DNA from: Oscillatoriaceae cyanobacterium Prado104
GTDB taxonomy: Bacteria > Cyanobacteriota > Cyanobacteriia > Cyanobacteriales > Microcoleaceae
NCBI GenBank assembly: GCA_025454405.1
Contig: JALOON010000040.1
Span: 1-64,000, forward strand
Reading direction: 5' to 3'
DNA: 64,000 nt
The position numbers and the translations under genes are program-made. Shown here piece after piece: positions 39,203 through 55,395 of this stretch (the stretch's first letter is position 1; the number at the start of each line of letters is the position of its first letter). Under the pieces are notes generated by a model that searched no databases, was not told the DNA's origin, and was given only the letters and a program-made list of their open reading frames with translations.

Positions 39203-39273
39203 AGCCCCGGTCTAAATTCTATTCAATTTGATAAACTTTAAAGTAACGTTCAGTCACTTCTGAGATTTGCAGT

Positions 39274-40886
39274 ATGTTGGAATGGTTGCTCACGATCGGC
39301 GCAGCAGAATTAGGAAAAGCGATCTTTGAACAAGTCCTGAAGTTGGGGCAATCTGCGGCCGAGGATTATGTGAAAGATTTCTTTAAAGGCTGTCTTCAGG
39401 AAGGAATCGCGACTGCGAAACCAGAGGTGACAAAAAAAGCAGTGGCTGAAGCGTTGAAGGCGTTTTTAATGCTTGTGACCGATGAATTAGAGGATCGAGA
39501 ACTGTCTAAAGAGGTAAAGCTTTTGAAAAAGATTGTAGATCGATCGACGCTACAGCATTATCAACTATTTGGCAGCAGTCTACGTTAAAAGGCAAGCCGT
39601 TTCCGATAATACCAGAGGAATTTGACTGGCCGCGTGTGGGGCGTGAATATTTGAAAAAAGTGCGCCGAATTATACGAGAAACACCCGAATTGCGATCGCT
39701 CCTGGAAACTGAACTGCTGGAAGATATTGCCCGAAATACAACGCCACTTTCACCAGGTTTTGATATTGCCAAATATCGAGAGAGTTTGCAGTATAGCTAT
39801 GGGCATCTGAAATTATACGCGCTCGACAGTACCGATCGCGTTGATGCTATCAAACTTTGGAATATGTTCGTTGAGCAGACAGTTCGACAGGCATTGCCAC
39901 CAATGCGATATGAACTGCCGCTGGATGTGAAACGCCAACTGCAAGAACAGGGGCAATTGGGGCCCGATTTATCACCTGAAGCACTGGAAAACTATCGGCA
40001 AGAATATTTTCGGCAACCCTCGCAGAAGGCTTTGGAGGCAGTTGCAGATTCTCAACGGGCAGTGATTTTGGGCGATCCGGGTGCGGGAAAGTCCACGCTT
40101 TTGCAGTATCTTGCTTTGGATTGGGTAGAGGGGAAAACTGAATTGTTACCCCTATTGATTGAGTTGCGAGAATATGCGATCGCCCAGACTCACAACTTCC
40201 TAGAATTTCTGCATTGCGGGCGTGGTGTAAATTGGCAATTCGATCGGCAACAACTCGATTTCGTCCATCGCACATTTTTAGAATATTTCTGTGCTGTGGA
40301 GATTGTGAATCAATTTGAAAAGCAACGAACTCTGACATTTGAACAATTGCGCGATGAGATTTTCGGTCAATACTGGCAAGATGAGACATGGCACGAGGTT
40401 CTACAGCTAATTTGTGGCATGATTGATGCAATATTTGTAGGTAATATTATTAATTTATTAATGCGTCAAGATGTGGACAGGAGCCAGTTTTTGGATACAG
40501 AAAAAGACATGACCTATGGTGATACTCGTCTTAAGAAGGAAGCAATTAACAATCTACTACTGGCTGCTCAATGTTTAATGATTGTCCCAAACCGCATTGC
40601 TTTAGAAAATACAGAAAGACAGCTTCTATATTTACTAAAGCAAGAGATTGAGGTAGAACATCCCGATCTTTTTAGCAACTCAGCAGTTAAGGAAATCATA
40701 CGCATTTTAGCTGCGACATGGCAAGGGAACACAGAGGTATTAACGTGGTTAAAATCACATCTTATTAACCTCAAAAAACAAGAGTCTTACTTCTTCATTT
40801 TCATTCCCATAGCTCTCTTACAAGGATGGAAAGACGATCCTGAAACTTTATTATGGATAAAAAAGCAAATTCAACAGGCTGAATAG
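39274..40886 (+). pseudogene. Decayed NACHT-family NTPase (frameshift and central deletion)
   Basis: Two frames make one broken gene. The first (39274-39588, 104 aa) is the N-terminal helical domain seen in cyanobacterial NACHT proteins (EWLLTIGAAELGKAIFEQVL). It leaves frame near 39550-39588, and the sequence continues one base over (TALSTIWQQSTLKGKPFPII, PEEFDWPRVGREYLKKVRRI). The second part holds Walker A AVILGDPGAGKSTLLQYLAL and LLPLLIELREYAIAQ. It then jumps from LEFLHCGRGVNWQFDRQQL to the late-NACHT segment DFVHRTFLEYFCAVEIVNQF, so Walker B and the sensor region are missing. NACHT proteins are NLR-like immune sensors; this one cannot hydrolyse NTP normally. Confidence 0.75.
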
Positions 40887-52085: not shown

Positions 52086-52253
52086 CAAATGCGAACATTG
52101 GTTGCTCGGTATGTAACAATAAAAGTTGCTAGCAACAGATCGCATCAAATCCGCGTGATTCATCCCCGTCATAACTGGGAGGGTGCCTCGCTTGTTTAAT
52201 TTCGAGCCTGGGCGAAATTTATTCGTAACGACGCACCCTACGTACACTTGAGG

Positions 52254-53387
52254 ATGTCCGAGCAGAAAGATCGACTAACGGTTAATTTATTGTGTGGTAT
52301 AAAAATGGTTGCTATGAAACCTCTGACTTTGCGAGAAGTAACGTTTGAATTAATAGATTCAGAAATATTTAAAATTCCCGATACTAGAACGCGGCTTGAT
52401 ACTCTGCAAAATTATTTTTTCCCGCGATTAGAAATATTACTGAGAGACACTTTAGATATTGTGCAAAAAGTTTATGGAGTAAATCCTTATGAATCGATGA
52501 CTTTTTCTTACAGACCCAACCATAGAAAAGATGCCACGGTCAATAAGGATATTGTAGGAGATGTGCATATAGGTATTCATGGAAAATCGAGAACTGCAAA
52601 AGATGGTTATCTCACCAGGAAACGAAAAAATGGACAGCCATATATTCTTCACAGTACTCTTTTAAACTACACAATAAATCCCGACGGCAGTATGTATGTA
52701 ATTTTATTTTTATGTTATGAAGATTGTGTGGCGGTAAATTCAGATTTTTTTGCCAGCATCCACAACCTATTTAAGAGCAATTTTAGCTTGTTAAACCAAA
52801 TATTTACACTCAATCAAATATATTATAGTAGTGCAGAAGAATTTGTAGATTTCTCACAAGCATTTAGCGCCGATAATTTAAGCAAATTTGAAACATATAC
52901 TTTTAATTTTTATTCAGTTAATTACTATTTCCCACTTCATTATAGTCGGGGATTATGGGAGTTAAGGAAAGCATTTATAGCCTTATATCCTTTACTAGAT
53001 TCTTTAATGCGCATTGAAAAAGGCGAAGCACCTCAACTAAGTAAAATGTTAAAAAAATATAAAAATTGGTATTTGGCAGGTGGGGCAAATTATGAGAACG
53101 AAATCGAATCTGCTGATTTTGAAAATACGGAACCTTCTTTGCCAGAGCTTGATAGTTACTCTTTTGTAAGAGCTGGTTTGTGGTGGGAAATTTTAGCTCG
53201 TGACAACTGGACATGTTGTAGTTGTAAACGTTCTGCTCAAAAACATGGTGTTGTTTTGCACGTTGACCATAAAATACCTCGTTCAAAGGGAGGTACTAAT
53301 GATAAAAGCAATCTTCAGACCTTGTGTATGAAATGCAACATTGGTAAAAGCAACAAAGATTCTACCGATCTTCAAAATAGAATTTGA
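52254..53387 (+). CDS. HNH endonuclease-domain protein with uncharacterised N-terminal domain
   Basis: A 377-aa frame from ATG 52254 (GAGG directly upstream); starts at 52305 or 52314 are also possible, the last giving MKPLTLREVTFELIDSEIF. Residues about 25-300 are an unrecognised alpha/beta domain, with RPNHRKDATVNKDIVGDVHI, GIHGKSRTAKDGYLTRKRKN and several aromatic-rich helices. Residues 305-370 are an HNH/McrA-like nuclease: WEILARDNWTCCSCKRSAQK, VVLHVDHKIPRSKGGTNDKS and NLQTLCMKCNIGKSNK, with two CxxC zinc pairs and the catalytic His-Asn. Base composition is AT-rich compared with its neighbours, and 51-bp direct repeats flank it, both consistent with recent acquisition. Possibly a restriction-type effector. 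Confidence 0.75.
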   Translation: MSEQKDRLTVNLLCGIKMVAMKPLTLREVTFELIDSEIFKIPDTRTRLDTLQNYFFPRLEILLRDTLDIVQKVYGVNPYESMTFSYRPNHRKDATVNKDIVGDVHIGIHGKSRTAKDGYLTRKRKNGQPYILHSTLLNYTINPDGSMYVILFLCYEDCVAVNSDFFASIHNLFKSNFSLLNQIFTLNQIYYSSAEEFVDFSQAFSADNLSKFETYTFNFYSVNYYFPLHYSRGLWELRKAFIALYPLLDSLMRIEKGEAPQLSKMLKKYKNWYLAGGANYENEIESADFENTEPSLPELDSYSFVRAGLWWEILARDNWTCCSCKRSAQKHGVVLHVDHKIPRSKGGTNDKSNLQTLCMKCNIGKSNKDSTDLQNRI

Positions 53388-54095: not shown

Positions 54096-54733
54096 ATGTT
54101 TTCTAAACAAATCACCGACTCAAAAGCCTACCAGTGGTTTGAGGAACGCCTAGTAAGTACGTACCTCCCCACGTCAACATCTTCTACTGCTTGGGCGGCG
54201 TAACTCTAGTTTGCTTTCTGATTCAGTTTGCGACCGGCTTTGCCATGACTTTCTACTACCGCCCCACGGTAGCAGAAGCCTTTACCTCAATCCAGTACCT
54301 GATGACAGAAGTCAACTTCGGCTGGCTGATCCGCTCGATTCACCGCTGGTCTGCGAGCATGATGGTACTGATGATGATCTTGCACATCTTCCGGGTTTAC
54401 CTGACCGGTGGCTTCAAAAAGCCCCGCGAATTGACCTGGGTGACCGGAGTGATCTTGGCAGTCATCACTGTTTCTTTCGGCGTGACCGGTTATTCTCTCC
54501 CTTGGGATCAAGTCGGTTACTGGGCTGTCAAAATCGTTTCCGGCGTCCCCGAAGCTATCCCCTTTGTCGGTTCTACACTGGTTGAACTCCTGCGCGGCGG
54601 TGTCGCTGTAGGTCAAGGTACTTTGACTCGCTACTACAGCTTGCACACCTTCGTTTTGCCTTGGCTGATTGCAGTGTTCATGCTCGCTCACTTCTTGATG
54701 ATTCGCAAGCAAGGCATCTCGGGCCCGTTGTAA
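54096..54733 (+). pseudogene. petB: Cytochrome b6 gene with a 31-nt deletion frameshift
   Basis: Cytochrome b6 of the b6f complex, broken as sequenced. ATG 54096 reads [19 protein letters not shown] then shifts frame and stops at 54201. The correct frame resumes at about 54155 ([20 protein letters not shown]) and runs to GPL-stop at 54733. It includes the haem ci Cys in FYCLGG, the haem b His-containing segments ([40 protein letters not shown]) and the PWDQ loop. A 222-codon petB needs 669 nt including stop; this locus has 638, so 31 nt are missing around the EIQ-DDIS segment. No start codon with a ribosome binding site serves the 180-aa remainder. petD follows normally. Confidence 0.85.
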
Positions 54734-54912: not shown

Positions 54913-55395
54913 ATGTCTATTGTCAAAAAACCGGATTTGAGCGATCCCGCTCTCCGCGCCAAACTCGCTAAGGGCATGGGTCACAACTATTACGGCGAAC
55001 CCGCTTGGCCCAATGACTTGCTCTACGTTTTCCCCGTGGTAATTTTAGGGACAATTTCTCTGTGCGTCGGTTTGGCAGTGCTCGACCCGGCTTTAGTTGG
55101 CGAACCCGCCAATCCTTTTGCTACTCCGCTAGAAATTCTGCCGGAATGGTATCTGTGGCCGGTGTTCCAAATCCTGCGCGTTTTGCCTAACAAATTGTTG
55201 GGTATTGTCGCCATGGGTTCTGTGCCCCTCGGTCTGATTTTGGTGCCGTTCATTGAGAACGTTAATAAGTTCCAAAATCCATTCCGCCGCCCGGTTGCTA
55301 CTGCTGTTTTCCTATTCGGAACTGCGGTAACTATCTGGTTGGGTATTGGTGCTATTTTCCCGATCGACAAATCTTTCACGCTGGGTCTGTTCTAA
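54913..55395 (+). CDS. petD: Cytochrome b6f complex subunit IV
   Basis: A 160-aa thylakoid membrane protein with three spans ([20 protein letters not shown] at the stromal N-terminus). The Qo-site motif is [20 protein letters not shown] (PEWY), and the C-terminal span is [20 protein letters not shown]. It pairs with cytochrome b6 to form the quinol-oxidising core. AAAAGGAG precedes the start. It is downstream of petB with a 179-bp gap. It is intact and of exact family length, in contrast to petB. A good terminator follows. Confidence 0.97.

Follow-up and report, generated by a model that had tools for sequence, protein, structure and literature searches.

The petB gene of Oscillatoriaceae cyanobacterium Prado104, which stands upstream of petD in the 64,000-nt stretch of DNA analysed here (the window), lacks 31 nt that its relatives possess and is broken over two reading frames. 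We consider this gap to be probably a sequencing or assembly fault of the draft genome, the organism itself carrying an ordinary intact petB-petD operon. This reading is preferred because petB is thought to be indispensable and because the draft shows comparable small gaps in further conserved genes. A short stretch would have been dropped in assembly or in gap closing, leaving petB 31 nt short, with gap closing, the removal of unknown bases and the collapse of a bubble as candidate steps; by our inference the gaps in petB and in the other genes arose in assembly. The petB break is most likely no real feature of the organism, and of the broken genes it is petB for which a genuine loss is least plausible.

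That petB is essential in cyanobacteria is in part general knowledge, and no paper title on petB knock-outs in cyanobacteria stood among the literature matches listed. The cytochrome complex that includes the petB product is described, in passages of two papers, as common to the photosynthetic and respiratory chains (PMC13354564; PMC6616624), and the reference list of the first names a 1992 title on the essential function of subunit IV. The case calls for caution, since a draft rated 99.94% complete can display a presumably essential gene as broken, and genes called lost from it, among them petB and mnmG, need checking against reads. A genuine and fixed deletion would run counter to the idea that oxygenic phototrophs need an intact cytochrome b6.

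The petB locus and the missing segment

The best matches among named genomes identify the region as the petB-petD of a Microcoleus-type cyanobacterium. A preliminary description had proposed that petB is broken by a 31-nt deletion and measures 638 nt from ATG to stop against a gene of 222 codons, and both statements are borne out. From the ATG at 54096 to the end of the downstream-frame stop at 54733 the locus measures 638 nt (remainder 2 on division by three), while the relatives have 222 codons. The absent 31 nt, equivalent to 10 codons and 1 base, belong between 54153 and 54154 (Table 1), within petB at CGCCTAGTAAGTACGTACC (54147–54165). At the break a single 31-nt gap accounts for the difference from the nearest relative (G009, locus L003; 89% identity over the query in the petB search), and the 100 bases of the window that were compared contain 1 mismatch. 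As in Microcoleus and its relatives, petB shares an operon with petD, and codons 1–19 and 30–222 align to the 222-codon genes; the difference lies in the broken frame and the missing 31 nt. The coding sequence thus occupies two frames over 638 nt in place of a single open frame some 222 codons long, and the heme c_i cysteine and the remaining protein are still present in the DNA, the second frame being free of stops through codons 30–222.

Table 1. Features of the petB-petD region (window coordinates).
Feature	Coordinates	Strand	Description	Profile match
petB, 5′ piece	54096–54203	+	Cytochrome b6 codons 1–19, then 16 out-of-frame codons to TAA (54201–54203)	
petB, deletion junction	54150–54158	+	CTAGTAAGT; 31 nt of relatives missing at 54153/54154	
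petB, 3′ piece	54152–54733	+	Codons 30–222 and stop, −1 frame, from Ser30	
petD	54913–55395	+	Subunit IV, intact, 160 aa	TIGR01156, positions 1–160 of 160

Under a rival reading, slippage between short repeats truly removed the 31 nt, and in the sequenced culture some or most of the many chromosome copies carry the deletion while intact copies sustain the cell. CTAG occurs in the 5′ flank; the 3′ end of the segment reads CTAC in the nearest relative, but an ancestor with ACT-AGT at codons 29–30 would have had CTAG there. Since AGT is a possible reading of Ser30 in the window, a CTAG…CTAG repeat with a period of 31 nt may predate the loss; if CTAG did stand at both ends in the ancestor, the breakpoint is ambiguous by up to 4 nt. 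One gap cleanly explains the difference from the nearest relative, cyanobacteria are often polyploid, and the breaks in other conserved genes of this genome may likewise be genuine. Against such a deletion, no base is exactly shared across the junction when the sequence of the nearest relative is used, no second petB allele was found in the assembly, and slippage at petB does not by itself account for the cuts in three other conserved genes. Taken together we regard slippage as unlikely. It is highly improbable that a polyploid cell keeps a high-copy null petB beside a minority intact allele, or that recoding yields a working cytochrome b6 from a gene broken in its N-terminal part.

A deletion that is real and fixed would require either a shortened cytochrome b6 started at the TTG at 54191 or −1 frameshifting within the overlap of the two frames (54143–54203). 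The downstream frame of 180 codons is indeed intact and constrained, and the 180-aa piece beginning at this TTG scores 321.6 bits against the NF002990 cut-off of 325. The TTG is the first ATG, GTG or TTG of the downstream frame. It directly follows the Cys codon (54188–54190) equivalent to that of the heme c_i cysteine, so a product started there would be without this cysteine as well as the N-terminal segment. We take the heme c_i cysteine, at position 42 here, to be Cys35 of the published numbering. Cys35 is stated to hold heme c_i (PMC3555230). The 25 same-genus relatives with a petB match all keep the segment, which also speaks against a fixed deletion, and we hold this explanation to be extremely improbable. 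Programmed frameshifting in petB was rejected as a candidate, neither an X-XXY-YYZ heptamer nor a run of five equal bases occurring near the break.

Two further observations concern the flanks of the petB-petD pair. Upstream of petB, an ORF of 379 aa (52248–53387) matches an IscB model weakly at its C-terminal end (49.9 bits against a cut-off of 175), a match that probably reflects just an HNH domain, itself an inferred assignment. Short, dense repeats of the aactcaaaactc type were seen by eye 3′ of petD, between 55560 and 55800.

Relatives, constraint and the search for a second copy

When the genome under study is left out, a petB match is present in 25 of 28 genomes of the same genus and none was found in the other three; in all 25 the gene is unbroken, has 222 codons and contains the segment. 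For named genomes the set comprised the best 80 of 565 confirmed loci and may overlap the same-genus set in species. Within it, 79 of the 80 loci give one ungapped match through the petB site, the exception being a Hormoscilla locus (L070) with a shift of about 1 nt near codon 44. This frameshift of about one base in the Hormoscilla petB (L070:2873–3537) is possibly a sequencing error.

Beyond assembly error, the preliminary description had offered a second petB copy and a tiny intervening event as explanations of the break, and neither of these stood up. The draft (G000) comprises 8.54 Mb in 161 contigs with a completeness of 99.94%, and searches of it with a Pfam family, with local DNA and with a full-length protein from a relative match only the petB locus; the second copy whose search the preliminary description had called for was therefore not found. 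A degenerate pattern written for the missing petB segment, searched as an exact match, likewise hit nothing elsewhere in the draft; this search would overlook a copy that used other codons than those in the pattern. An inserted element or intron at the petB site is ruled out, as nothing is inserted there and the comparison with the nearest relative shows a loss.

The codons that remain in petB appear to be under constraint. Comparison with the nearest relative over 212 shared codons (34 synonymous and 7 non-synonymous codon differences) gives a dN/dS of 0.056, slightly higher than the 0.038–0.045 obtained for three pairs of intact petB relatives. Four of the seven residues that differ from the nearest relative occur elsewhere in the genus, and the other three replacements (A11, T74 and I76) are found in loci of other cyanobacteria. 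The 41 bases 5′ of the petB ATG are identical to those of the nearest relative, as counted by eye, and petA has one match in the genome, an open frame of 336 aa without a stop. A decayed pseudogene was considered and rejected, since with the dN/dS noted above constraint is not relaxed and no more stops occur in codons 30–222. It is very unlikely that petB is an old null or pseudogene, because its remaining codons are constrained, petD is intact and the petA frame is open; the loss is either recent or not real. The same three observations count against the loss of cytochrome b6f function in an organism that manages without it, a reading which the broken petB frame and the lack of any other copy found would favour but which we find scarcely credible.

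Other broken genes in the same draft

Of the three options in the preliminary description, assembly error has the strongest support, since frame-breaking gaps of the same kind, judged against relatives, occur in three further genes that lie on three other contigs. These conserved genes, broken in the manner of petB, encode MnmG, an asparaginase_2 protein and a GAF-GAF-cyclase; the mnmG case emerged from an ortholog comparison and the other two from a screen for frame breaks. The mnmG gene has a frame-breaking gap of 83 nt and was found in the draft only as two halves (L117:9670–11500, contig C8). The 83-nt segment is present in six of the seven relatives searched, the seventh giving just a 32-nt match. 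In the asparaginase_2 gene (L132:18375–19216, contig C6) the frame-breaking gap is 100 nt and all seven relatives carry the segment. The cyclase gene (L125:8468–11604, contig C16) has a net frame-breaking gap of 49 nt against the nearest relative; the net figure is 49 nt against five of the seven relatives and 52 nt against two, so that all seven are longer there. The breaks in mnmG, asparaginase_2 and the cyclase could be real losses.

Within the window itself, at 39253–40883, a gene for an NNH2-NACHT protein (STAND type) is likewise broken, with positions 1–57 of the NNH2 profile in one frame and positions 81–180 in another. In both the asparaginase_2 and the NNH2-NACHT gene a single Pfam family matches in two frames, the second asparaginase_2 piece scoring 20.2 bits, which is under the cut-off of 27. 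By eye, the NACHT part of the NNH2-NACHT gene also seems internally shortened.

Published assembly errors offer a partial parallel to the petB gap. The error finder Kastor deals with genes split by a false deletion where the references are intact, which resembles the situation of petB, although it addresses only indels of 1–2 nt, with deletion errors tied to homopolymers in long reads (PMC12007338). The petB gap differs in being 31 nt long, with no run of five equal bases nearby. Kastor skips indels longer than 2 nt on the ground that these more probably represent true variants (PMC12007338), and this we count against a fault of the draft, as we do the fact that the sampled contigs contain no unknown bases in their interior.

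Extent of frame breaks in the draft

A codon-usage screen for frame breaks was run on the draft and on a second genome of the genus (G003). It returned 95 candidates against 1531 coding segments in the draft and 44 against 641 in the second genome, so that this raw screen, which is not specific, gives no excess in the draft. Narrowing the list by criteria chosen after it had been seen (a coding signal ending 20 nt or more before the stop, with a summed score of 75 or higher) left 12 candidates in 1.85 Mb of the draft and 5 in 0.80 Mb of the second genome. Convincing breaks made up 3 of the 12 in the draft (asparaginase_2, NNH2-NACHT and the cyclase) against 0 of the 5 in the second genome, among which no broken core gene was apparent. 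A further 8 of the 12 represent neighbouring genes, a transposase or unclear cases (judged partly by eye), and a TPR-CHAT candidate in the draft is ambiguous because of its own repeats.

The ortholog comparison set the same 1.85 Mb of the draft against the 0.80 Mb of the second genome, which is assembled in 6 contigs, with ORFs searched both ways at an identity of at least 75%. In the draft, 71 ORFs of the second genome were each covered by a single match, 12 remaining uncovered; in the opposite direction 73 were so covered and 11 were not. Each direction yielded one gene split over two frames, mnmG in the draft and a DUF2887 gene in the second genome. The latter is whole in the draft (L117:453–1610) and lies in two frames at about 954363–955521 of G003:C1, where unlike sequence separates the two pieces. 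Split genes thus occur also in a 6-contig genome, a point that counts against a fault of the draft, although mnmG encodes a conserved enzyme whereas the DUF2887 gene has no known function. As the raw screen gave no excess over the second genome and each direction gave one split gene, the draft may not be broadly faulty and some of its breaks may be real.

The remaining uncovered ORFs were mostly short, repeats or ends, and were set aside by eye. For a 364-aa gene only a diverged C-terminal end was found. Two further genes, 718 and 714 aa long, match one contig of the draft in part only; at their sites there the open frames measure 560 and 934 aa, the 934-aa site with an extra small piece in another frame.
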